Under the pieces are notes generated by a model. The model worked only from the letters and a program-made list of their open reading frames with translations, searched no databases and was not told the origin of the DNA. A stretch of 64,000 nt of DNA from Acidihalobacter yilgarnensis (GTDB taxonomy: Bacteria > Pseudomonadota > Gammaproteobacteria > DSM-5130 > Acidihalobacteraceae): positions 896,501 through 960,500 of the forward strand of contig NZ_CP017415.1 of the NCBI RefSeq assembly GCF_001753245.1, given 5' to 3'. Shown here one piece after another: positions 43,621 to 61,682 of this stretch. The position numbers and the translations under genes were made by a program. How positions within the stretch are numbered: the first letter of the stretch is position 1; every line of letters starts with the position of its first letter.

Positions 43621-45062
43621 CTAGCTTATTGATTTATATAGTGTTGAATAAGCTTGCGCACTGCGTGTCCAGCTGAAATCCGACCGTGTGCCACTACGAA
43701 TCAGTATCTCCCAGTCGGGGGTGTTCCAGAGGACGAGTAGACGTTCCAGGCCTGCTCCAAGGGCCTCGGCGCTTGGCGCGTCGAACAGAAAGCCATTGGC
43801 GGTGCCGGCGGCGAGATGATCGGGTGTGGCATCGATGATGGTGTCGGCGAGGCCACCGGTACGGTGAGCCAGTGGCGGTGTGCCGTAGCGTAGGCTGTAC
43901 ATCTGATTCAGCCCGCAGGGTTCGAATCGCGAAGGCATCAGAAAGGCATCTGCGCCGGCCTCGATATGATGTGCCAATGTTTCGTCGTAACCGATACGGA
44001 CCGCGAGGCGATCGGGATAGCGCGTGGCCAGTGCACTCAGCGCGAGCTCGAAGCGTCGTTCGCCGCTACCGAGGATGACGGCGCGGGCGCGGCCTTGTGC
44101 CAGTAGCGGCTCGATCGCGGCGATGACGAGGTCGATGCCCTTTTGTTCCACCAGGCGTCCGATGAGTCCGAGCAGTGGGGGGCGTGCTCGGATTCGTTTA
44201 GATCGAGTGCCTCGCACAAACTCGCGCGGCATTGGCGTTTGGCAACCTCGTCGATTGGATCGAAGGGGGTTGGCAGATAGGTGTCGGTACGGGGATTCCA
44301 AGCGGTTTCATCGATACCGTTGATAATGCCGCTGAGTACATCGACGCGGTGGGTGAGCAGGCCTTCGAGCCCGTAACCGAAATCTGGCGTGAGAATCTCT
44401 TTGGCATAAGTCGGGCTGACGGTGGTAATGCGATCGGCGAAAACCAATCCGCCTTTGATAAAGGATAACTGGCCATAAAATTCAAGCCCATCGGGACGCC
44501 ACAGTGTCTGGGGTAGGTCGAGTTCGTGCAACGCCTCGGGAGGGAATAGGCCTTGATATGCGAGGTTATGGATGGTGAATACGGTGGCAGGGCGTTCGGC
44601 GCGCCCGTTCAATAGCGCCGGTGCAAGGCCTGTTTGCCAGTCGTTGCAGTGCAGTAGCTCGGGCCGCCAGCGCAGATCGGCCTCGCCCATGGCCAGCGCC
44701 GCGATCGCACGTCCGAAAAGCCCGAAGCGCAGGTGATTGTCCTGCCAGTCGCGCCCGTCGGGTGCGCGATAGGGATTGCCGGCGCGCTCGAAATACAGTG
44801 GAGCGTCCACCAGATAGACTGGCAGGCGGGTGCCGGGCAGAGTACCGGAAAGGAGTTGCCATTCGCTGGGTTTGCCATTGAGTGGCGGAGTACCTAGCGA
44901 TTTCCAGCGTCGTGCGCGTTTGATAGCCGGGTAGGCGGGGAGGACAAGGCGTACATCGTGCCCCAAGCCGGCAAGCGCCTGCGGCAGACTGCCGCTGACA
45001 TCGGCTAGCCCACCAGTCTTGATCAGGGGGTGGGCCTCACTGCTCGCAAAGAGTATTCGCAT
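43621..45062 (-). pseudogene. glgA: Glycogen synthase GlgA, frameshifted
   Basis: The ADP-glucose-dependent glycogen synthase is complete in content but split between two frames. The first piece starts MRILFASSEAHPLIKTGGLADVSG, with the KTGGL substrate motif. The second carries GLIGRLVEQKGIDLV and PSRFEPCGLNQMYSLRYG with the catalytic Glu and ends near residue 480. The phase changes at six G on the plus strand (44177-44182), where a seventh base would restore a single frame. It may be a true inactivation, a variable tract or an error. It is upstream of ppc and divergent from zwf. Confidence 0.85.
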
Positions 45063-50168: not shown

Positions 50169-51047
50169 TTAGCTGTGCCCGCGACTGAGCACCAGCGAGG
50201 CTGCCGCCGTCCGCGTTTCGACCCCGAGTTTTTCGAATACATGCTCCAGGTGCTTGTTCACCGTGCGTGGGCTGATATCGAGGATCTCGCCGATCTCTCG
50301 ATTGGTCTTCCCCAGCGTTACCCAGTAGAGCACTTCGGCCTCACGCGTGGTCAACGGATAGCTGCGCGCCAAAACCTCGGGTTCGGGCAAGGCGGCGTGG
50401 CGCTGGATGCAGAGCAAGCCCGGTTCGATGAGGCTGAACAGCAGGCGTTCGCCCCCGTGCCACAGGGCATAGGGCGTTTCCATGACGTCCGAGCCTTGCA
50501 GCCAGTGACGCAGCGGTAGCGGCAGACGGTCGTCGTCCACCAGCGGTTGCAGCCAGCGCTGGGCAAGTGGCGTGGCCCAGGCAATTTTATGTCGCGCGTC
50601 GAAGGCGACGATGGCGCGACCGGCTGAATCGATCGCCGAGCGGGTATGGGTCATTAGGCGGGCACGATGCATGTGCGTGGCAATGCGCGCCAGCAGCTCG
50701 TCAATCACGACAGGCTTGGTCACGTAGTCGACACCGCCGACCTGAAAGCCCTGCACGATGTGCTCGGTATCGCTCAGGCCGGTCATGAAAATCACCGGAA
50801 TGTCGCGCGTTTCCAGGCCTTGCTTGAGCCGTCGGCAAGTCTCGAAGCCATCGATGCCGGGCATGCGGGCATCCAGCACGATCACGTCGGGCGCCAGACG
50901 TCGGACGCTTTCGATCGCAGCAAAGCCGTCGGTGGCCACGCGGACGTCGTAGCCCTGCTCCTGCAGGCTGTCGTGGATCACCTGGAGGTTGTCCGGTGCG
51001 TCGTCGACGAGTAACACGGTGCCTGTACCTGTTGCCGAGTTATACAT
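50169..51047 (-). CDS. LuxR-type response regulator of the amide two-component system
   Basis: A 292-residue regulator. The receiver (about 10-125) has VLLVDDAPDN with acidic pair Asp15-Asp16, phosphoacceptor Asp59 in VIVLDARMPG, and Lys111 in TKP. A PAS-like middle section spans about 135-215. The LuxR/NarL HTH is at 231-288 with LTTREAEVLYWVTLGKTNRE and SPRTVNKHLEHVFEKL. Its ATG lies eight bases inside the end of the sensor-kinase gene, so translation is coupled and it is the obvious partner. It probably controls the divergent transporter-formamidase-amidase operon through sites at 54.6-54.7 kb. Confidence 0.88.
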   Translation of the reverse strand: MYNSATGTGTVLLVDDAPDNLQVIHDSLQEQGYDVRVATDGFAAIESVRRLAPDVIVLDARMPGIDGFETCRRLKQGLETRDIPVIFMTGLSDTEHIVQGFQVGGVDYVTKPVVIDELLARIATHMHRARLMTHTRSAIDSAGRAIVAFDARHKIAWATPLAQRWLQPLVDDDRLPLPLRHWLQGSDVMETPYALWHGGERLLFSLIEPGLLCIQRHAALPEPEVLARSYPLTTREAEVLYWVTLGKTNREIGEILDISPRTVNKHLEHVFEKLGVETRTAAASLVLSRGHS

Positions 51048-54000
51048 CTTGATCGGTACGCTCCAGCTGTCGCATGTAATCGTTCAGCCGAAAATGCTGC
51101 ACATGCAGGCGTAGGCGTTGCGTAAACGCGACAAGCCGCGCATCTCCCTGCTCAAGCGCATCCAGGCGCTCGAGTATGCCTCGGATATGGCCGAGGCTGC
51201 CGAGGTCGTGTAGTTCGCGCAAGATTTCCGCGTCTGGGCGAATCTGTGGCGACGACAATGGGAGGGCTTCGCGGGCCAATGCCTCGGCGACCGGTTGCGT
51301 GCCGACGGCCTGATGAATGTCGCGCCGGGTGATCCATTCAAGGCCCAGCCGCGCCTGCAGGCGGCCGAGCAGGGCATCGATGTCTACCGGTTTGCTCAGG
51401 AAGTCGTCGTGTGTAATGCCCGCCGCGTTGTCGCGCCCCCGCTCTTGCACGTTCGCGGAGATGACCAAAATTGGGGCCACAGACAGGGCGTTTTCACGCA
51501 GCAGTCGGCCGGTTTCCCAACCGCCAAGTCCCGGCATATTGAGATCCATGAATATGATATCCGGCTGGAAGGCGGCGACGGCACGCAGTGCATCGACACC
51601 CGACTCGGCCTCGACAACCTCGAAACCGAGCGGTCTGAGCACACTCAGCAGGAGGCCGCGATCAACTACCTGGTCATCGACGACCAGGATGCGCCGCCGC
51701 TGCCCGACATAACCGGTGACGTCCGGTGGCGGTAGGATCGTCATATGCCCTGGATCGCGTACTTCAGGCAGAAACAGGCGGAGCCGGAACAGACTGCCGC
51801 CGGTTTTGAGGCCGTGTACGGTCAGTTCACCGCCCATCAGCGTGGTTAGCATACTTGCGATGGTCAAGCCGAGGCCGGCGCTGCTGCTGGCATATCCCGC
51901 GGCGTTATCGCCGCGCTCGAAGGGTAGGAAAATACGTTCTCTATCGGCGTCTGAGATACCGATACCGGAGTCTTCGATTTCGAAGCGTGCCATTTCGCCG
52001 CGATAGTACAGGCGGAAAACCACACGCCCTCGGTCGGTGAACTTGATGGCGTTGCCCAGGATGTTGATCAGAATCTGTCCAAGGCGTTTCTTGTCGATGC
52101 GAACGACCTTGGGTAGCTCGTTGTGGACCTCGTAGACGAATTCGATCCCTTTTTCGCTTGCCTGCAGGCGGAACATGTCGGCGAGCTGGGCGACATGTTG
52201 TGGGAAGTGGATCTGTTCTTGCTCGATGGCTAGCTTCCCGGCCTCGATCTTGGAAATGTCGAGTAGACCGTCGATCAAGGACACCAGGTGTTCGCCGCTG
52301 CGGCGGATGACACGCATGGCCTCGCGTCGATTGGCTGGTACCTGCGGGTCGTGTTCGACGATCTGTGCATAGCCCAGGATGCTGTTGAGCGGTGTGCGTA
52401 ACTCGTGACTGATACCCGTCAGATAGCGGCTTTTGGCCTGATTGGCGCGTTCGGCAACCTGAATGGCGGTCTGTAATTGCGCATCGGTCTGGCGATGCGC
52501 CTCGATTTCGTTCATCAATAGATGGGTCTGCCGGTTGGATTCGTCCTGCGCGACATAACGGCTTTCGACGGTGAGCACCAGCCACCAGCAACCGGCCGCA
52601 GCGAACATCAGCAGTACCACATAGAATTTGAGCAGGATAGAGCGTAGCGCGGCCAGCGTCGAAGGGTCGGCCGCGCCGGTGGCCTGCTGCAGGTAGAGCA
52701 GCGAAAGCATGATGCCCAGCGCCAGGGCGGTGGTCAGGATCAGGAGCAGGTAGTAACCGAGACGTGTGTTGATGCGCGCCGACAGCGGGCGCGGTAGCAG
52801 CCAATGCAGGGCATTGACGAACTGCTCGGGCAAGCCGGCGCCGGGCCGACACAGGTCGTGGCAGCGGGCATCAAGCGTGCAGCACAGCGAGCAGATCGGG
52901 CCACGATAGGCGGGGCAAGTGGCCATATCCTCGCCCTCGTATTCCTTCTCGCAGATGACGCAGCGCTGGGCCTTTGCCTCCTCGGGCTGTTCCGGCGTGC
53001 GTGCGAGGTAGTAGCGGCCACGGGTCAGCCAGGCAATGACCGGGGCGACGACGAAGGCAGTGCCGAGGGCGATAAAGGCCGAAAAAGACTGTGCGAGGGG
53101 CCCCAGCCAACCCGAGAACGCCACGATGGATAAGGTGGAGGCAATCAGCAGGGCACCGATACCGACTGGGTTGATGTCATAGAGATAGGCACGCTTGAAT
53201 TCGATGCCGGGCGGACTGAGGCCCAACGGTTTGTTGATCACGAGATCGGCGACCAGTGCGCCGACCCAGCTGATCGCGATGTTCGAGTACAGCCCAAGGA
53301 CATGTTCCAGGGCGTCGAACACGCCCATTTCCATCAGCAGTAGGGCGATCAGAACGTTGAATACCAGCCAGACGATACGGCCGGGGTGGCTGTGGGTGAT
53401 GCGTGCGAAAAAATTGGACCAGGCCAGGGAGCCGGCGTAAGCGTTGGTGACGTTGATCTTGATCTGCGAAACCACCACGAACAGCGCAGCGACGGCAAGT
53501 GTCCAGGCAGGGGAGTCGAAGACATAACCGAAACCGACCTTGTACATGACCGCCGGCTGTTTGGCCTCGGCAGCGGTGAAGCCGGTGCGCAGGGCGAGGT
53601 AGGCGAGCAGTGCGCCAGCCATGAGCTTGAAGGCTCCGAAGACGATCCAGCCGGGGCCCGCGAAGATCACTCCAGTGAACCAGCGCAGACGGTTTCCCGC
53701 CTTGAGGGGTGGCATGAAGCGCAGGTAGTCGACCTGTTCGCCGATTTGCGCGATCAGGGCGAGGGTGACGCTGGTGGCGGCGCCGAAGGCGAGCAGATTG
53801 AAATGTCCGCCGGTGCCACTTTCGCCACCGAAGGCCATGAGCTGCTGGATGACGCCGGGGTCCTTCCAGAGCACGCAGATATAGGGCAGGACGAGCAGGA
53901 ACAGCCATAACGGCTGCGTCCAGATCTGCAGGCGGTTGATTACGGTGATGCCGTAACCGACCAGCGGGAGCACGATGAGGGCGCTGAACAGGTAGGACGG

Positions 54001-54489
54001 CGTGATGGCGACACCCAGATAGAGGTGCAGCGCCTGGGCCATGATCGTGGCTTCAATGGCGAAGAATATGAAGGTGAACGAGGCGTATATCAGTGAGGTG
54101 ATCGTCGACCCGATATATCCGAAGCCCGCGCCGCGGGTCAGTAGGTCCATATCGAGATTGTATTTGGCCGCGTAATAGGCAATGGGCAGGCTGGTCATGA
54201 ATACCATGAGGGCCACGGCCAATGCTGCCCAGAAGGTATTGATGAATCCGTACTGCACCGCAAGGGTGCCGCCGATGGCTTCCAGTGCCAGGAACGAGAC
54301 CGCGCCGAAGGCCGTATTGGCGACGCGGAAAATAGACCACTTGCGGAAGGTCCGTGCGGTGTAGCGCAGGGCGTAATCTTCAAGCGTTTCGTCGGCTACC
54401 CAGGATTTGTAGTCGCGGCGGATCTTGATGACCCGTCTCTGCGGTGCAACCCCGGGCGCCGCAGCGCCGCGTGGACCCTTCATATTCAC
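51040..54489 (-). CDS. NCS1 permease-histidine kinase-receiver fusion (putative amide sensor)
   Basis: 1149 residues. Residues about 30-495 form a complete NCS1-type permease with twelve helices, very close to the divergent transporter (identical LLTRGAGFGY at 116-125 and SQIKINVTNAY at 341-351). At 510-547 follows a cysteine module CxxC-x11-C-x7-CxxCC-x5-C-x3-C, identical in spacing to that of the transporter. Two more helices (about 578-600 and 618-641) lead to a coiled coil, HisKA with His695 in GISHELRTP, an HATPase domain with ILINILGNAIKF, DSGIGI and GLGLTI, a receiver (932-1045) with Asp982 and Lys1033, and a helical C-terminal region. It presumably binds the transported substrate and signals to the overlapping response regulator gene. 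The N-terminus is MNMKGPRGAA. Confidence 0.93.
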   Translation of the reverse strand: MNMKGPRGAAAPGVAPQRRVIKIRRDYKSWVADETLEDYALRYTARTFRKWSIFRVANTAFGAVSFLALEAIGGTLAVQYGFINTFWAALAVALMVFMTSLPIAYYAAKYNLDMDLLTRGAGFGYIGSTITSLIYASFTFIFFAIEATIMAQALHLYLGVAITPSYLFSALIVLPLVGYGITVINRLQIWTQPLWLFLLVLPYICVLWKDPGVIQQLMAFGGESGTGGHFNLLAFGAATSVTLALIAQIGEQVDYLRFMPPLKAGNRLRWFTGVIFAGPGWIVFGAFKLMAGALLAYLALRTGFTAAEAKQPAVMYKVGFGYVFDSPAWTLAVAALFVVVSQIKINVTNAYAGSLAWSNFFARITHSHPGRIVWLVFNVLIALLLMEMGVFDALEHVLGLYSNIAISWVGALVADLVINKPLGLSPPGIEFKRAYLYDINPVGIGALLIASTLSIVAFSGWLGPLAQSFSAFIALGTAFVVAPVIAWLTRGRYYLARTPEQPEEAKAQRCVICEKEYEGEDMATCPAYRGPICSLCCTLDARCHDLCRPGAGLPEQFVNALHWLLPRPLSARINTRLGYYLLLILTTALALGIMLSLLYLQQATGAADPSTLAALRSILLKFYVVLLMFAAAGCWWLVLTVESRYVAQDESNRQTHLLMNEIEAHRQTDAQLQTAIQVAERANQAKSRYLTGISHELRTPLNSILGYAQIVEHDPQVPANRREAMRVIRRSGEHLVSLIDGLLDISKIEAGKLAIEQEQIHFPQHVAQLADMFRLQASEKGIEFVYEVHNELPKVVRIDKKRLGQILINILGNAIKFTDRGRVVFRLYYRGEMARFEIEDSGIGISDADRERIFLPFERGDNAAGYASSSAGLGLTIASMLTTLMGGELTVHGLKTGGSLFRLRLFLPEVRDPGHMTILPPPDVTGYVGQRRRILVVDDQVVDRGLLLSVLRPLGFEVVEAESGVDALRAVAAFQPDIIFMDLNMPGLGGWETGRLLRENALSVAPILVISANVQERGRDNAAGITHDDFLSKPVDIDALLGRLQARLGLEWITRRDIHQAVGTQPVAEALAREALPLSSPQIRPDAEILRELHDLGSLGHIRGILERLDALEQGDARLVAFTQRLRLHVQHFRLNDYMRQLERTDQDV

Positions 54490-54955
54490 CCTGTTCCCGA
54501 ATGATGTGTGCCCCGGACGCTGCTCACGTCAGCTGTCCCGTGTGTAACCGCGGACACTGCCGCCCCTTCTCAGCCGGAGACCCCCGTGAATCAGCATGCG
54601 GTGGACCTGCATATCTCACTATACGTCGGATGACGTACTTGGCGTCACTTGGAATAATTTAATTCCTTTTTATTCAATAAATTAATCCGTTTTTTGGGTG
54701 TTTTGTATAGTGAGGCAAATGACGTATTCCGGCAGCGGATGGGGATTTGTAAGCTGCTTATCGTCGGCGTGAGGCCCTGCTGTCGCGGGCTGACCGGGAT
54801 TGGCTGGGTGATGCGCAAGAGTACTTGTCGACATCCTGCAGTGCCGGTCGTGGATTTGCAGGGGCATGCGGCGACCTCCGGGCAGTCTTTCCAGCGTCGG
54901 CATCGGCTTTTGAGGCCGAGTTTGCGGGATCCAGTCACAGTTGAGGAAGCGAATC
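54490..54955. other. Divergent control region between sensor and transporter genes
   Basis: 466 bases between the kinase (-) and the permease (+) start codons. The middle (about 54650-54710) is very AT-rich and should hold promoters for both directions. No protein is evident. Regulator-like repeats are listed separately. From 54730 to the permease start the leader is GC-rich, about 220 bases long, and without recognised structure. Confidence 0.5.
54616..54725. promoter_or_regulatory. Paired operator-like sites around an AT-rich core
   Basis: TCACTATAC at 54616-54624 and its exact reverse complement GTATAGTGA at 54705-54713 flank an AT-rich stretch. Each is followed within some 15 bases by ATGACGTA (54630-54637 and 54718-54725). 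In addition CGTACTTGG and CGTCACTTGG stand in tandem near 54634-54652. The arrangement suits two binding sites for the LuxR-type regulator serving the divergent promoters, but this is inferred from symmetry only. Confidence 0.45.
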
Positions 54956-56635
54956 ATGAGCACACCATCAACGGCAATACCCAAGGGGCGAGCGAGCGGA
55001 CGTTCGTTCAATAAATTCGTCAGCAATCCAGTCCTTGAAGATTATTCGCTGCGCTATGCACCCACTTCGTTCAGGAAATGGTCCGAGTTTGCAGTGGCAT
55101 CCACGGCACTCGGCGGCATTGCGTATCTTGCAGACCAGGCCATCGGCGGCTCGTTGGCGATCCAGTTTGGCTTCACCAACGCGCTATGGGGCATTCTCGC
55201 CGCCGCGCTGGTTATTTTCCTGACGGGTATTCCGATCGCCTACTATTCGGCGAAATACAACGTCGACGTTGATCTGCTGACCCGTGGCGCGGGTTTTGGT
55301 TATTTGGGCTCGACAATCACCTCGGTCATCTACGCCTCGTTCACCTTCATATTCTTCGCGCTTGAAGGTTCGATCATGGCACAGGCCTTGTATCTGTATT
55401 TCCACATACCCCTGCCTTGGGGCTACGCACTGGCGTCGCTGATCATCATTCCGCTGGTCGTATTCGGCATGACCCTGTTGTCCAAGCTACAGGTTTGGAC
55501 GCAGCCGATCTGGATTACCCTGTTGTTCGCACCGCTGATCGCGGTGTTGTTCGGTGACCACAAGGCGCTTGCCGACTGGACCTCGTTTGCAGGGCATGCG
55601 CCGTCATCCGGTTTCAATCCGCTGTTGTTCGGCGGTGCTGCCGGTATCGCGCTGTCGTTGATCGCGCAGATCGGCGAACAGGCCGATTATCTGCGTTTCA
55701 TGCCTGCGAAGAAGCCCGGCAGCGCCTGGAAGTGGTGGTTGGCGGTGATGCTGGCCGGTCCGGGTTGGGTCATTCTGGGCGCCAGCAAACAGCTGATGGG
55801 TTCGTTGTTCGCCTCGGTGGCAGCCTCCCACGGCACGCCGTTGGCACAGGCGAACGAGCCGATCCAGATGTATGTCACCGGCTTTCATTACATCTTCCCC
55901 AGCGCCTTTGCCGCGCTGACCGTCGCGACCTTCTTTGTGATCCTGTCGCAGATCAAGATCAACGTCACCAATGCCTATTCGGGTTCGCTGTCCTGGTCCA
56001 ATTTCTTCTCGCGCACGCTGCACACCCATCCGGGCCGTGTGGTCTGGATCTTCTTCAATGTCGGCATTTCGCTAACGCTGATGGAAGCCAATATGTTCAG
56101 TGTACTCGGGCACATCCTCGGCTTTTATTCGAACGTCGCGGTGGCTTGGGTGGGTGCGGTGGTTGCGGATCTTGTCATCAACAAGCCGTTGCTCAAGCTG
56201 AGCCCGTCCTATATCGAGTTCAAGCGCGCGCATCTGTACAACTTCAATCCGGTTGGTTTCGGCTCGATGGTGATCGCCTCCATTATTTCCATCCTGGCCT
56301 TCTTCGATTTCTTCGGTGCCTATGCACAGGCGTTCTCGACCTTCATCGCGCTCGGTGTGGCCTTCGTGCTGTCACCGATTATCGCGATCATCACCCAAGG
56401 CAAATACTACATCGCACGCGACCCGCACTACCACGCGGGCACGCACCACGATGTACTGAACTGCAGCTCCTGCGGTTTCGAGTACGAGAAGGAAGACATG
56501 GCTTGCTGCCCGCACCATCAGGGCCCGATCTGCTCGTTGTGCTGCTCACTGGAATCCTCCTGCCATGACATGTGCAAAAAGCCAGACACGATCAACGGCA
56601 TGCCGGTAGTCACCATGCCCGAGCGCTGCGGCTAA
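54956..56635 (+). CDS. NCS1-family permease with C-terminal cysteine module (putative amide/urea-type transporter)
   Basis: A 559-residue inner-membrane transporter of the nucleobase-cation symporter-1 family, with twelve predicted helices. Family-like segments are LLTRGAGFGYLGSTIT (107-122), IAQIGEQADYLRFMP (236-250) and SQIKINVTNAY (331-341). After the last helix, residues 503-540 form CxxC-x11-C-x7-CxxCC-x5-C-x3-C, a possible zinc or iron-sulfur knot. Family substrates are purines, pyrimidines, hydantoin or allantoin. With formamidase and amidase downstream, a small amide is more likely here. The ATG at 54956 gives a protein colinear with the kinase's permease half. Confidence 0.88.
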   Translation: MSTPSTAIPKGRASGRSFNKFVSNPVLEDYSLRYAPTSFRKWSEFAVASTALGGIAYLADQAIGGSLAIQFGFTNALWGILAAALVIFLTGIPIAYYSAKYNVDVDLLTRGAGFGYLGSTITSVIYASFTFIFFALEGSIMAQALYLYFHIPLPWGYALASLIIIPLVVFGMTLLSKLQVWTQPIWITLLFAPLIAVLFGDHKALADWTSFAGHAPSSGFNPLLFGGAAGIALSLIAQIGEQADYLRFMPAKKPGSAWKWWLAVMLAGPGWVILGASKQLMGSLFASVAASHGTPLAQANEPIQMYVTGFHYIFPSAFAALTVATFFVILSQIKINVTNAYSGSLSWSNFFSRTLHTHPGRVVWIFFNVGISLTLMEANMFSVLGHILGFYSNVAVAWVGAVVADLVINKPLLKLSPSYIEFKRAHLYNFNPVGFGSMVIASIISILAFFDFFGAYAQAFSTFIALGVAFVLSPIIAIITQGKYYIARDPHYHAGTHHDVLNCSSCGFEYEKEDMACCPHHQGPICSLCCSLESSCHDMCKKPDTINGMPVVTMPERCG

Positions 56636-56731
56636 ATTTTCTCCACGAACCCGTGTGCGCCGCCCTACAAGCGGCGGTGCACACGAAAAGCCGCGCATAT
56701 CCGAAAACCGCTTCGTCTAGGGAGAAATACA

Positions 56732-57955
56732 ATGGAAACCTTAATCAAGGTTGATTTGAACAAGACGCCGGAGGAGCAGGCCGACGTATTACACAATCGC
56801 TGGCACCCCGACATTCCAATGGTCGCGGTGGTGAAGCCGGGCGCTGAGTTCCGCATCGAGTGCATTGATTGGACCGGCGGGCAGATCGGAAACAACGACA
56901 GCGCCAACGATGTGCGCGACGTCGATCTGACCAAGGTGCATTATCTCAGTGGTCCGATCGGGGTCGAGGGCGCCGAGCCGGGCGATCTGTTGGTAGTCGA
57001 TATTCTTGACGTTGGCGTGCTGCCGGATTCAGCCTGGGGATTCAATGGACTCTTCGCCTTCGAGAATGGCGGCGGGTTTCTCACGGACCACTATCCCGAG
57101 GCGAAGAAATCCTGCTGGGATTTCCATGGTATCTATACCTCCTCGCGTCACATTCCCAACGTCGAATTCGCTGGCGTGATGCATCCGGGCTTGATCGGCT
57201 GCCTACCGTCGCAAGAGCTGCTTGCCGAATGGAACAAGCGCGAGGGCGCCCTGGTTGCCACCGACCCGGATCGAGTACCGCCTTTGGCAGCGCTGCCCTA
57301 TGAGGAAACCGCGCTGATGGGCCGCATGACGGGGGAAGCGGCCGTGAAGGCGGCGAAAGAAGGTGCGCGCACCGTGCCGCCACGCGAGCATGGCGGTAAT
57401 TGCGACATCAAGGATCTCACTAAGGGCTCCAAGGTTTATTTCCCGGTTTACGTCAACGGTGCGGGCCTGTCCATGGGCGATATTCACTTCTCCCAGGGCG
57501 ACGGCGAGATTTCCTTCTGCGGCGCCATCGAAATGGCTGGTTATCTCGATTTGCGCGTCAGTTTGATCAAGGGTGGTGTGGCCAAATACGGCATCAAAAA
57601 CCCTGTCTTCAAGCCCAGTCCATTATCACCGAAATACGAAGATTATCTGATCTTCGAGGGTATTTCCGTCGACGAGAATGGCAAGCAGTTCTATCTGGAT
57701 GCCCATGTCGCATACAAGCAGGCCTGTCTGAATGCGATCGAATACTTGAAGAAATTCGGTTATTCCGGCGAACAGGCGTACGCGATCCTGGGCACCGCGC
57801 CGGTACAGGGGCATATCAGCGGAATCGTTGATATTCCGAATGCCTGCGCGACGCTTTGGCTGCCGACAGGCATCTTCGATTTCGATCCCAATCCGAGCGC
57901 AGCCGGCCCGCAGATCATGGTCGAACCCGGCGTCAGCCTTGCTTCCACCAGCTGA
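56732..57955 (+). CDS. fmdA: Formamidase (acetamidase/formamidase family)
   Basis: Hydrolyses formamide to formate and ammonia. The 407-residue protein follows FmdA-type formamidases closely: MPETL-like start (METLIKVDLNKTPEEQ), HNRWHPDIPM, the ECIDWTGGQIGNNDSANDV section, FHGIYTSSRHIPNVEFAG, and PREHGGNCDIKDL, the metal-site region. A GGGAG ribosome site precedes the ATG. It is 96 bases downstream of the transporter and 22 bases upstream of fmdB, so the three form one operon. Oligomeric enzymes of this family are cytoplasmic. Confidence 0.95.
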   Translation: METLIKVDLNKTPEEQADVLHNRWHPDIPMVAVVKPGAEFRIECIDWTGGQIGNNDSANDVRDVDLTKVHYLSGPIGVEGAEPGDLLVVDILDVGVLPDSAWGFNGLFAFENGGGFLTDHYPEAKKSCWDFHGIYTSSRHIPNVEFAGVMHPGLIGCLPSQELLAEWNKREGALVATDPDRVPPLAALPYEETALMGRMTGEAAVKAAKEGARTVPPREHGGNCDIKDLTKGSKVYFPVYVNGAGLSMGDIHFSQGDGEISFCGAIEMAGYLDLRVSLIKGGVAKYGIKNPVFKPSPLSPKYEDYLIFEGISVDENGKQFYLDAHVAYKQACLNAIEYLKKFGYSGEQAYAILGTAPVQGHISGIVDIPNACATLWLPTGIFDFDPNPSAAGPQIMVEPGVSLASTS

Positions 57956-57977
57956 TTACAGATCGAGGGAGACAACG

Positions 57978-58337
57978 ATGCCTCTATATGACTACGCCTG
58001 TCCCAGTTGCGGCGAATTTTCCGAGTTTGCCGCAATCAATCGCTCGGCCGAGCCCGCATCCTGCCCAATGTGTGGTGGGTCGGCATCCCGTGTGATCGGC
58101 GCGCCCGCACTGGCTTTGATGTCTTCGGCCCTCAGGCAGGCACATACACGCAGCGAAAAGAGCGCACATGCGCCTGCCCGAACATCCACACGGGGTTGCG
58201 GTTGCCACGGTAGCCACACTTGCAATAGCGCCGTCGTCAAGCGTGTGAACGATACGCGCATCTCGCGAGGCGGGACTGCCGGAAGCCAGATGAAGACCGG
58301 GGCGGCGGGTGCTCGACCATGGATGTTGGGGCACTGA
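57978..58337 (+). CDS. fmdB: FmdB-type zinc-ribbon protein
   Basis: A 119-residue protein with the FmdB zinc ribbon at the N-terminus: MPLYDYACPSCGEF (CxxC) and, 19 residues later, CPMCGGSASRVIGAP (CxxC). The rest is low-complexity and contains an extra cluster GCGCHGSHTC. FmdB proteins accompany formamidases and were proposed to regulate or mature the operon's products. The biochemical role is not proven. A GGGAG site precedes the ATG. It sits between fmdA and amiE in the same operon. Confidence 0.85.
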   Translation: MPLYDYACPSCGEFSEFAAINRSAEPASCPMCGGSASRVIGAPALALMSSALRQAHTRSEKSAHAPARTSTRGCGCHGSHTCNSAVVKRVNDTRISRGGTAGSQMKTGAAGARPWMLGH

Positions 58338-58448
58338 CATCGGCATGCGAGCGCGCTGGCGTTGCTGCTCACTATGAAGGTCAATGCGATCGTCGGGTGA
58401 TGCCCGAACATTCGATTGCCATTCCATTTATTCGGAGAGATTTCTGTC

Positions 58449-59492
58449 ATGAGACACGGTGATATTTCATCCAGCGCGGATACGGTCGGCGTTGCCGTTG
58501 TGAATTATAAAATGCCGCGCTTGCATACACGTGCGGAGGTCCTGGAGAACGCCCACAAGATCGCCGATATGGTGGTGGGCATGAAGCAGGGGCTGCCGGG
58601 TATGGATCTGGTTATTTTCCCGGAATATAGCACCCACGGCATTATGTACGATGCCAAGGAAATGTATGAAACCGCCTCTTCGGTGCCTGGTTCTGAAACC
58701 GAAATATTTTCCGCGGCCTGTCGCAAGGCAAAAACTTGGGGTGTGTTTTCGTTGACCGGGGAGTGTCATGAGGAGCATCCCAATAAAGCACCTTATAACA
58801 CACTGATACTGATCAACGATCAGGGCGAAATCGTGCAGAAATATCGCAAGATCATGCCCTGGTGCCCAATCGAAGGTTGGTATCCGGGTGGTAAAACCTA
58901 TGTGACCGAAGGGCCGAAGGGACTGATGGTCAGTTTGATTATCTGCGATGACGGCAATTACCCGGAAATCTGGCGCGACTGCGCAATGAAGGGCGCAGAA
59001 CTCATCGTGCGTTGCCAAGGTTACATGTATCCCTCCAAAGAACAGCAAGTCGTCGTCGCCAAGGCGATGGCCTGGATGAATAACAGCTATGTTGCGGTAG
59101 CGAACGCCACCGGCTTCGACGGCGTGTATTCCTATTTCGGTCATTCCGCGATTGTCGGTTTCGATGGCCGTACGCTCGGTGAATGCGGCGAAGAGGAATA
59201 CGGTATCCAGTATGCCGAGCTTTCCGTCTCCCAGATTCGTGATTCGCGAAAGCATGGTCAGTCTGAAAATCATCTCTATAAGCTTCTGCACCGCGGCTAT
59301 ACCGGCATGATCAATTCGGGTGACGACATTAATGGTGCACTGGAATGTCCCTACGAGTTTTATAAAACCTGGGTGACCGACCCTGCACTGGCACGTGAAA
59401 ATGTGGAAAAAATAACCCGTAGCACGCCTGGTACCGCCGAATGCCCGATTGTAGGCATCCCTAATGAGGAAACGCTTGGCGGACATAAATGA
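58449..59492 (+). CDS. amiE: Aliphatic amidase
   Basis: Hydrolyses short-chain amides such as acetamide and propionamide to the acid and ammonia. At 347 residues it aligns without gaps to the Pseudomonas-type enzyme, even in numbering: catalytic Glu59 (FPEY), Lys134 (KYRK) and Cys166 (IICDDGN), with [13 protein letters not shown] following. The ATG at 58449 gives the family N-terminus [20 protein letters not shown]. It is the last gene of the transporter-fmdA-fmdB-amiE unit, and the two amidases together cover formamide to C3 amides as nitrogen sources. Confidence 0.96.
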
Positions 59493-59527
59493 CCGCCTGG
59501 AAGAATAAGTAATAAAGACGCAATATT

Positions 59528-59560
59528 CAGGATCGCAGCGACGGGATCGCTGCGATCCTG
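59528..59560. terminator. Perfect 14-bp stem after amiE
   Basis: CAGGATCGCAGCGA (59528-59541) pairs with TCGCTGCGATCCTG (59547-59560) over a five-base loop. It lies 35 bases after the amiE stop. There is no T tract, so it may act as a terminator with Rho or as a 3' RNA stabiliser. Confidence 0.55.
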
Positions 59561-59796
59561 CGCGGAAAAAATACGCATGGCATTCCTTGTCGATAAATTT
59601 ACCCAGCATTTATCTGTCGCAATTTTCACAGTCTGGTGGGTGACGTCGTCTATACGGTGTTGATGGCCGTATCGGGTGGCAAGCGTACCGCGTATTGATG
59701 CGCAATTGACCATTCGGAGAGTGTGATTCATGCAAGGCTACAAAATATTCTAGCGATGCACTCAAGTCACTGCTCGCAAGTTGAAGTGACCCATAA

Positions 59797-59825
59797 GCCA
59801 TCTGGGTTTGCGGAACCGAGATGGC
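59797..59825 (+). promoter_or_regulatory. Hairpin directly upstream of the vWA gene start
   Basis: GCCATCT (59797-59803) pairs with AGATGGC (59819-59825), and inside it GGTT pairs with AACC around TGCGG. The ribosome site GAGAGAA follows at once, so the hairpin could limit ribosome access. The remaining 59561-59796 holds no gene that I can see. Confidence 0.4.
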
Positions 59826-59837
59826 TGAGAGAATAAC

Positions 59838-61682
59838 TTGTCGGTCGAATTCATGTCAGTGCGAGGTCATGAGCCAGCGGTCGCGGAAGCGTGCGTTAGG
59901 GACGGGTGCGCGGCAGTACTGCTGGATGACGTGCGTTATCGTCTGCAGCTTTATTTGATCGCATTATGGGGCCGGGATTTCGCCATCGAGCCGCTGAGTG
60001 ACGATGCTACATCGCCTTTGACGCAACGTCCTTGTTTGCGTGGAGACACCATCCATCTGCCGTCCAGGATCGAAGCAGGCGAGGAGGTGTCGGCAATGGC
60101 GCATTACCGCGCCGCTGCGGTACACGCCGCTGCGCATGCGATCTACTCCCACGCCTTCGATGCGCAGGACCTCAAACCGCGCCAGCGCCTGTTGGTCGAG
60201 CTGATCGAGGATGCGCGTGTCGAGTATCTTGCCATTCAGCGTTTTCCCCGACTTCGATACCTGTGGGCATCGTTACTCCCCCCGAAACCGTCGACAGCAA
60301 TGCCGTTCCCGGCGCTGATTTGGCAATTATCCAAGGCGTTACTGGCGCCAGAGGCGGCCTATCGCGGCGATTTTTGGATTGACAAGGGCGTGGGACTGTT
60401 TTTAGAAAGACGCGCGTGCATGGAGGATCCGACTATTTCGCGTGAGATTGGCTTGCGCCTGGCTCACGATCTCGGGCAGATGCGTTTGGCAATGGACGAG
60501 GGCGGGACGTTGCCGCTATTGGCGAGTTATCGGGACGATAATCGACATCTGTGGCTGCAGGTGCGCGAAACGCTGTCCGAGGATGCCCAGAATGCGGCAG
60601 AGTGTATGCCCGCAAGTCGTCCAGAGGCCTTTTTGGAAGAGGCCACAGAAGGGCGTCGGCTCGCCTTCTCGGAAATCGCTCTGACGGGTGAGGGTGGCGA
60701 TGTGGGTTACCGGGTAGAGGTGACATCGGATGATGCGAGCCTGTCTTTCTATCAATCGACCGCGCCCTGCCCAGAGCCGAACCGCATGCGCTACCCCGAA
60801 TGGTTTGAGGATCTGGGATTCGAGCGCCAGAACTGGTGCACGGTACGCGAGCAGTCCGCACCCACTTCGGATACCGTCGAAGCGGAGCGCGCGCTGGGGG
60901 AGCGCCAGGTGTTGCTACGCCGTCTACGCAACGTAATAGGTGCCCTGCGCATGCGCCGGATAGTGCGCTTGCGGGCGCAGGAAAGTGGCGACGATCTGGA
61001 CCTGGATGCTGCCATCCGCGTGTTGGCCGAATGGCGGACTGGCCGCGTGCCCGATGCCTACGTCTATCAGCGTAGACGGATACAGAACGACTCGTCACTG
61101 AACACGTCGTTACTGCTGGATTTGTCCGAGTCCGTTAATACGCCGGTATCGGCAGTCGGTCGACGGGTGCTCGATCTTGCCCGCGAGGCCGTTCTTCTGC
61201 TTGGGCAGACAGTGGATGGATTGGGGCACCCATTGGCGGTGGCCGGATTCCGTTCGAATGGGCGCCATGAAATCGACTATCTGCGCGTGAAGGGCTTCGA
61301 CGAAGATTTCGATGCCGAGGCACGTGGCCGGCTGTATGGTCTGACGGGCGGCGGATCGACACGGATGGGGGCAGCGATCCGACATGCGACGGCCTCGCTG
61401 GCTGCCGAAACGGGAAGCCACCGATTATTGCTCGTGGTAACCGACGGGGTACCCGCGGATATTGATGTATTCAACCCGGATCACCTGGTCTCCGATGCAC
61501 GCCATGCCGTGATGCAGGCGCGTCGGCAAGGCGTTCAGGTGTTTTGCGTCAGCCTGGACCCTCGGGCGGATGTCTACGTATCGCGCATCTTCGGCCTGGC
61601 TCACTATCTTGTGCTAGACCAAGTGGAATATCTGCCTGAGCGATTGACGCGCTTGTTCCTGAAATTCGCGAGTACGGCGTGA
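59838..61682 (+). CDS. NorD/CbbO-family vWA-domain protein
   Basis: A 614-residue protein with a C-terminal von Willebrand A domain: MIDAS motif DLSES in LLLDLSESVNTP, GGGSTRMGAA for the conserved Thr, and VTDGVPADID for the Asp. The N-terminal half (for example HAIYSHAF and EDARVEYLAIQRFPRLRYL) matches the region shared by NorD and CbbO proteins, which work with a MoxR-type AAA+ ATPase to insert metals into or activate nitric oxide reductase or RuBisCO. No AAA+ partner, nor nor or cbb gene, is in the window, so its client is unknown. A TTG at 59838 follows GAGAGAA. An ATG at 59853 is the alternative. Confidence 0.8.
   Translation: MSVEFMSVRGHEPAVAEACVRDGCAAVLLDDVRYRLQLYLIALWGRDFAIEPLSDDATSPLTQRPCLRGDTIHLPSRIEAGEEVSAMAHYRAAAVHAAAHAIYSHAFDAQDLKPRQRLLVELIEDARVEYLAIQRFPRLRYLWASLLPPKPSTAMPFPALIWQLSKALLAPEAAYRGDFWIDKGVGLFLERRACMEDPTISREIGLRLAHDLGQMRLAMDEGGTLPLLASYRDDNRHLWLQVRETLSEDAQNAAECMPASRPEAFLEEATEGRRLAFSEIALTGEGGDVGYRVEVTSDDASLSFYQSTAPCPEPNRMRYPEWFEDLGFERQNWCTVREQSAPTSDTVEAERALGERQVLLRRLRNVIGALRMRRIVRLRAQESGDDLDLDAAIRVLAEWRTGRVPDAYVYQRRRIQNDSSLNTSLLLDLSESVNTPVSAVGRRVLDLAREAVLLLGQTVDGLGHPLAVAGFRSNGRHEIDYLRVKGFDEDFDAEARGRLYGLTGGGSTRMGAAIRHATASLAAETGSHRLLLVVTDGVPADIDVFNPDHLVSDARHAVMQARRQGVQVFCVSLDPRADVYVSRIFGLAHYLVLDQVEYLPERLTRLFLKFASTA

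Follow-up and report, generated by a model that had tools for sequence, protein, structure and literature searches.

A permease joined to a hybrid histidine kinase beside amidase genes: a probable NCS1-fold sensor of urea and short amides

The 64,000-nucleotide stretch of the Acidihalobacter yilgarnensis genome analysed here (contig NZ_CP017415.1, positions 896,501 to 960,500; hereafter the window) carries on its reverse strand a gene for a protein of 1149 amino acids (51040..54489), in which a permease and a hybrid histidine kinase are fused in a single open frame, an architecture shared with two congeners. The start codon is a GTG at 54489, and the third codon is an ATG. The protein begins with an NCS1-like permease domain (residues ~24-497; 52999..54420, reverse strand), recognized by its identity to a neighbouring free-standing permease and by profile and fold matches. 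It is followed on the same strand by an eight-cysteine module (residues 510-547; 52849..52962) and by two extra helices (residues ~576-604 and ~609-684; 52438..52764), which are taken from an AlphaFold2 model of low confidence. HisKA (residues 685-751; 52237..52437; Pfam E 1.7e-16), HATPase_c (residues 799-907; 51769..52095; E 6.4e-20) and a receiver (Response_reg, residues 934-1044; 51358..51690; E 2.5e-20) complete the protein on that strand, and all three pass the Pfam cut-off. The phosphorylatable positions were placed by motif, His695 by SHELRTPLN beginning at residue 694 and Asp982 by FMDLNMPG beginning at residue 980; with a HisKA domain that has its histidine, a HATPase and a receiver that has its aspartate, the sensor is a hybrid histidine kinase. 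A first-pass annotation, made from the letters of the sequence, had described such a one-gene protein, and the open frame, the Pfam matches and the motif positions bear it out. That annotation had also proposed looking for a stop or a frame change between permease and kinase; the fused gene is intact in the two congeners. Because both of them keep the fused gene as well as the free permease (91-92% identity for the free permease, 91% for the nearest sensor), it is very unlikely that a sequencing error lies between permease and kinase.

The kinase gene overlaps by 8 bases a gene for a LuxR-type response regulator (50169..51047, reverse strand), in which Pfam recognizes a receiver and a GerE domain. 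On its other side, across a gap of 466 bases, lies the divergent gene of the free-standing paralogous permease (54956..56635, forward strand), which has 559 amino acids, the same cysteine module and 55% identity to the sensor. Further along the forward strand are genes for the formamidase FmdA (56732..57955; NCBIfam NF045496, 789 bits), an FmdB-type zinc ribbon protein (57978..58337; PF09723 and TIGR02605) and the aliphatic amidase AmiE (58416..59492; NF009802, 708 bits). The whole arrangement is retained in the two congeners. A simple promoter and terminator scan of 54400-59900 gave no excess over shuffled sequence. A third, divergent free copy of the permease was seen in a congener of the window (L113:8806-10548, forward strand); it has 581 amino acids, is 51% identical to the free permease of the window and has no labelled neighbours.

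As the first-pass annotation had noted, the permease half is colinear with the divergent free transporter: residues 16-548 of the sensor align with it at 55% identity over 539 columns, the cysteine module included. The name NCS1 permease, which it had also given, needs a qualification. The Pfam model of this family, PF02133, matches neither permease of the window, even at E 10, and none of 44 representative fusions at E 0.001 (these were drawn from 82 fusions, one per 75% identity cluster, with L007 and L168 left out). A PF02133 search of the window's genome found one other gene. Among five free relatives tested, the model matched the urease-linked L094 (37.8 bits) and the distant L169 (36.4 bits), both above the cut-off of 23.5, and gave no match in L113, L170 or L057 (Methylovirgula). 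When a family profile of 6 free and 40 fused rows was compared by hhalign with a 5-row NCS1 profile, the two matched at 96.5% (E 8e-10) over 324 colinear columns, as against 0.4% for an SSF profile used as control; kinship of the permease with SSF/SLC5 was ruled out by this comparison. An AlphaFold2 model of residues 9-685, built from 8 sequences (mean pLDDT 61, pTM 0.63), had its best solved folds in CodB (Z 26.5) and Mhp1 (Z 25.0, 24.1 and 21.5), with ApcT as the next family (21.1). Sequence searches of solved structures returned 0 relatives for the free permease and, for the 46-row profile, just two weak zinc-protein matches, to the cysteine part. Because of the profile-profile match, the fold and a free homologue that does match PF02133, placement of the permease in a divergent branch of NCS1 is supported despite the silence of PF02133. 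Neither PF00474 (SSF) nor the Amt family had a match in the Pfam scans of the window permeases or of the 44 representative fusions, and no STAC-named domain was among the Pfam and NCBIfam matches listed for the window or the 44 fusions, the presence of a STAC model in these libraries being unchecked.

Conservation extends to individual positions. There are 129 columns conserved in the sensors (L168 was left out of this comparison, and both L168 and L170 out of the tree described below), and 82 of them are identical across eight free permeases, many being charged or polar; those common to sensors and free permeases include E146, E251, Q252, D254, N346 and N349 in sensor numbering. Because 82 of 129 columns are identical, sensor and free transporter probably recognise ligands of one kind, and the fused permease may have kept the ability to transport.

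The cysteine module has the form CxxC-x11-C-x7-CxxCC-x5-C-x3-C, a pattern present in 84 of 84 fused rows, and every one of its eight cysteines is kept in at least 97% of the sensors (83 fused rows compared). The free amide-type permeases carry all eight cysteines and three urease-type free permeases only four. The existence of free permeases with all eight cysteines and no kinase therefore means that the full module is not kinase-specific. That the module binds metal is a guess. In the AlphaFold2 model, which is of low confidence here, the two extra helices span 568-596 and 601-676 in model numbering (model residue plus 8 gives the protein residue), and the second continues unbroken into HisKA.

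Relatives were sought with the free permease as query, at E 1e-20 in the class and E 1e-5 in the phylum. Of the genomes searched, 17 of 369 had a match in the class, 57 of 398 in the phylum and 4 of 5 in the order; plasmid records gave 527 matches, free or fused, of which 342 are from Klebsiella. All but one of the 58 places in the phylum with E < 1e-100 lie in open frames of at least 894 amino acids, the exception being the window's own free gene. The family is thus widespread but patchy in Pseudomonadota, and in these draws the fusion is the rule and the free form the exception. A set of 84 fused loci was assembled: 74 from the class, phylum and order searches together with the window (one of them, L112, from the order search alone), 6 from a scan of genome contigs and 4 from plasmids, with the weak places G572, G663:C9, G545 and G586 left out. 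Annotations of the fused gene in plasmid records include 'ATP-binding protein', 'response regulator' and even ArcB.

The first-pass annotation had expected amide or other nitrogen genes next to homologues of the sensor, and had made this a test of its proposal; tabulation of the neighbours upheld it. To label the neighbours, phmmer was run with reference proteins taken from the window and the plasmid loci at a threshold of at least 45 bits, and an ATP-binding cassette (ABC) transporter was counted only when a binding protein was accompanied by another subunit. At least one urea/amide gene was found near 65 of the 74 fused loci, near 64 of the 68 that have 6 kb of upstream room and, once the set is thinned at 75% permease identity, near 34 of 39. 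The neighbours comprise a urea/amide ABC transporter (52 of the 74 loci), formamidase (42), AmiE (23) and urease (14). In 78 of all 84 fused loci the fused gene is followed within 1 kb, on its own strand, by a response regulator gene. The locus on Methylovirgula pHY1 holds fmdA, fmdB, the kinase, the regulator, a free permease and an amidase; that of B. vietnamiensis has an amide ABC transporter, FmdA, FmdB and a nitrilase-family protein; and the fused gene adjoins urtABCDE on S. meliloti pSymB, and urtABCDE plus formamidase on a Klebsiella plasmid. In one genome (L101) there are two fused sensors, separated by about 9.5 kb and accompanied by one regulator each.

The eight free homologues have neighbours of similar kinds: three stand by urease genes, four by fmd or amidase genes (three of these in one genus) and one by neither. 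In L094 and L110 the free homologue comes after ureDABCEFG, a position that suggests an unrecognised urea permease; the homologue in the Klebsiella record is annotated as a cytosine permease, and an insertion sequence (IS) element lies inside that urease cluster. Also in Klebsiella, a cluster of urea ABC transporter and formamidase genes on a plasmid of Klebsiella pneumoniae MGH 39 (L092, 65529-91124) carries the sensor and a high-scoring copy of the palindrome described next; its regulator frame is absent from the PLSDB table. This cluster looks like a putative equivalent of the UTS in the Klebsiella CG307 preprint.

Between the sensor and the free permease lies an operator-like palindrome, ATACGTCGGATGACGTAC (54621..54638), whose core TACGTCNNNNGACGTA occurs exactly in this one place of the 3.57-Mb genome. 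The pattern TACGTC-N4-GACGTA is common to the intergenic regions of the window and the two congeners, and the consensus palindrome upstream of homologues is ATACGTCAwwTGACGTAT. The shorter form TACG-N8-CGTA is found upstream of 33 of the 84 fused genes, where its density within these loci predicts 1.4, and other spacings (0 to 20 tried) occur in at most 2 loci. In the window TACG-N8-CGTA appears three times (47374, 54622 and 61059), so that single occurrences mean little. A matrix trained on loci less than 70% identical scored at least 12 upstream of 52 of the 84 fused genes, where random stretches of these loci predict 1.6; its seed, TACG-N8-CGTA, was discovered in these very loci, and the discovery is hence not independent. 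The palindrome is present in 52 of 77 loci with a LuxR-type regulator versus 0 of 5 without one (Fisher p 0.005, which is only a guide because the loci are related; L007 and L168, which contig ends truncate, are not included). No palindrome was found in the 450 bases before five other free permeases checked (L057, L093, L094, L110 and L113).

We consider it likely that the fused protein is an NCS1-fold transceptor kinase for urea or short amides that works via the adjacent regulator on the palindrome. Since its relatives repeatedly adjoin uptake and breakdown genes, the sensor probably switches on urea/amide genes. Its input domain would be the permease half, and the ligand urea or a short aliphatic amide; the amidases in the window make formamide or acetamide the most likely here. 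Binding of the ligand, or its passage, would shift the conformation of the permease, and the shift would be relayed through the cysteine module in the cytoplasm and through the hairpin of two helices, the second of which enters the kinase. The kinase would autophosphorylate at His695, may hand the phosphate to its own receiver at Asp982, and would phosphorylate the LuxR-type regulator encoded by the overlapping gene. The regulator in turn would bind the ATACGTCAwwTGACGTAT palindrome between the divergent genes and activate genes of uptake and hydrolysis. Phosphotransfer from histidine to aspartate and LuxR-type DNA binding would follow from what is known of these families. What the sequences themselves show is the architecture, its conservation, the gene neighbourhood, the adjoining regulator and the palindrome. 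We infer the nature of the ligand (urea or short amides), the sensing role of the permease half, activation as the mode of control, and a regulon that consists here of the free permease and fmdA-fmdB-amiE; elsewhere it would include urea/amide ABC transporters and urease.

Several observations weigh against this interpretation. Nine of the 74 fused loci have no urea/amide neighbours, five of them with less than 6 kb of upstream sequence. Among 20 control loci with unrelated kinases none has a urea/amide binding protein, formamidase, amidase or urease, but this control is rough, as the loci come mostly from other phyla and, at about 15 kb on average, are shorter. The upstream region scores below 12 in 32 of the 84 loci, including S. 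meliloti, which has the regulator as well as the sensor and urt genes; three Pseudoduganella/Duganella loci also fall below 12, and there the transporter is not divergent from the sensor. When one mismatch is allowed, the core is found at 3 places in the genome versus 11 for the reversed control, so that the exact core alone stands out, and within the window ATACGTCNNNNGACGTAT at up to 3 mismatches was found twice versus 1.8 expected, no better than chance. The case for the operator rests on the exact core and on the homologues. The structure model is weak (mean pLDDT 61). Finally, in CbrA the SLC5 domain is dispensable for signalling and kinase activity is unchanged by histidine (PMC7096432; this and the papers below are cited from excerpts), so that sensing of the ligand need not reside in the permease half of the present sensor.

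Urea and the amides are equally possible as ligands. A rather unlikely alternative is that urea alone is recognised, or else a nucleobase-like compound such as classical NCS1 permeases bind, and that the link to amidases is secondary. Urea ABC transporters and urease at many loci, and the three free homologues that stand by urease genes, fit this alternative, and classical NCS1 members bind cytosine or hydantoins according to the titles of their structures; however, formamidase is found in 42 and AmiE in 23 of the 74 loci, and neither a urea-type binding protein nor a urease gene was labelled in the window.

It is also conceivable, though unlikely, that transport is the main role of the permease half and that the kinase answers another, cytoplasmic signal, such as nitrogen status, or metal or redox state via the cysteine module, the fusion serving to couple uptake to regulation. 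CbrA, which transports histidine while its kinase works without the SLC5 domain (PMC7096432), offers a precedent; the 82 columns shared with free permeases, which suggest that transport may persist, and the near invariance of the eight cysteines in the sensors would suit such an arrangement. Yet the same eight cysteines occur in amide-type permeases that have no kinase, and Pfam finds no PAS or other input domain in 43 of the 44 representative fusions. The outputs, moreover, vary behind a constant permease and cysteine module, which is what one would expect of an input unit. Of these 44 fusions, 43 have HisKA and HATPase, 39 a receiver and one a PAS domain by Pfam. The receiver is absent in the permease-kinase fusions L096, L135 and L144, and also in L004 and L005, whereas L097 (7152-10820, reverse strand) has PAS-GGDEF-EAL behind permease and cysteine module in place of the kinase, and L100, from the same 75% identity cluster, reads permease-PAS-PAS-kinase-receiver. 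L097 would tie a urea/amide-type permease to cyclic di-GMP (c-di-GMP); of the urea/amide genes looked for, none was found in its 20 kb.

The proposed urea/amide sensor also has a history of its own. In a quick tree a single branch (support 99) sets the 83 fused rows apart, and a careful tree (34 of 92 rows, with the alignment cut before the cysteine module) separates 26 fused from 8 free rows with support 100/98 and in 100% of 200 bootstrap trees. Local and recent origin of the sensor, by duplication and fusion of its neighbour, is therefore extremely improbable in spite of their 55% identity, colinearity and divergent adjacency, and it was ruled out, as the window sensor groups with sensors of other families. 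The first-pass annotation had taken the sensor for a duplicate of the neighbouring amide transporter, and this part of it fell: the tree has a split between fused and free forms and no sister pair. By the tree, the window sensor and its free neighbour are old paralogues that separated long before. With the distant free-standing L169 as outgroup, a root that rests on one very long branch, the fusion looks to have been gained once from a free permease.

Taking these results together, we lean, by a small degree, towards seeing in these proteins of Pseudomonadota and Klebsiella plasmids a distinct family, NCS1-fold transceptors that respond to urea and short amides, with one fusion event, varied outputs (hybrid kinase, plain kinase, PAS-kinase and PAS-GGDEF-EAL) and a conserved operator of 16-18 bp. 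If true, this would be a dedicated two-component system for urea and amides, and would supply the missing regulator of the plasmid-borne urea transport cluster in urinary Klebsiella lineages; a candidate regulator can now be named for many urea/amide uptake operons. A fused and a free permease of one family stand side by side with a predicted operator between them, and ligand, transport and signalling could thereby be separated by swaps.

Two side observations concern the genome itself. Near C1:3235621 (L194) a match to the urease alpha subunit lies in an open frame of just 170 amino acids, with a frame of 482 amino acids nearby in another phase, and the urease gene of this genome may be broken. 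At 43621-45062 of the window (reverse strand) a glycogen synthase gene, named from reading its translation, is split into the overlapping frames 44037-45062 and 43621-44301, an apparent frameshift.

Transporter domains joined to histidine kinases are known from several systems. CbrA of Pseudomonas, which acts with CbrB, has both in one polypeptide and has been termed a transceptor (PMC13022988, PMC7096432). The window sensor likewise joins a transporter domain to a histidine kinase, but CbrA combines SLC5, STAC and PAS, whereas the window sensor has an NCS1-like domain, the cysteine module and the helical hairpin, and its gene neighbours are different. CrbS/CrbR and RpuS/RpuR, SLC5/STAC kinases with LuxR-family regulators, control the use or uptake of their own compound, including a free permease (PMC5436829, PMC9100948), and Csal869 is an SSF-PAS hybrid kinase whose predicted partner is the NarL/FixJ-type EupR (PMC2964678). 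All three kinases share with the window sensor a transporter-like domain plus a kinase; they differ in ligand (acetate, pyruvate and ectoines there, not the amides proposed here), in permease family and in linker. Ks-Amt5 of Kuenenia is an ammonium transporter-histidine kinase in which the transporter fold is re-used as a receptor and transport is lost (PMC5764959); it is, as proposed for the window sensor, a fused-kinase receptor for a nitrogen compound, with an Amt fold and ammonium where the present sensor is NCS1-like. Whether the transporter-like halves of fused kinases sense is thus a question on which CbrA suggests perhaps not, and Ks-Amt5 yes. AmtE of Azoarcus, an Amt domain fused to GGDEF/EAL (PMC8467165), resembles L097 in setting a transporter domain on c-di-GMP modules, but its transporter is Amt and not NCS1-like, and L097 adds PAS.

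In the main text of the RpuS and CbrA structure papers neither NCS1 nor urea appears as a word. Excerpts of the Klebsiella CG307 preprint describe UrtABC/AmiF, a urea transport cluster; the terms histidine kinase and two-component are absent from the preprint's main text. Among the best-ranked matches in open-access full text, with the subscription literature mostly outside, no description of an NCS1-kinase sensor was found, so one may exist.

Within NCS1 itself, CodB and Mhp1 are the nearest solved relatives, with the best fold matches and a colinear profile, whereas the window sensor adds a cysteine module and a kinase and escapes PF02133. AmiC/AmiR of Pseudomonas aeruginosa provides amide-responsive control of an aliphatic amidase, as is proposed for the window sensor; unlike it, that system consists of a soluble binding protein and an antiterminator, and is not known to involve a kinase. 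The transporter-kinase fusion is already known as a kind, and we file the NCS1-like version linked to urea and amides as an apparently new variant of it.

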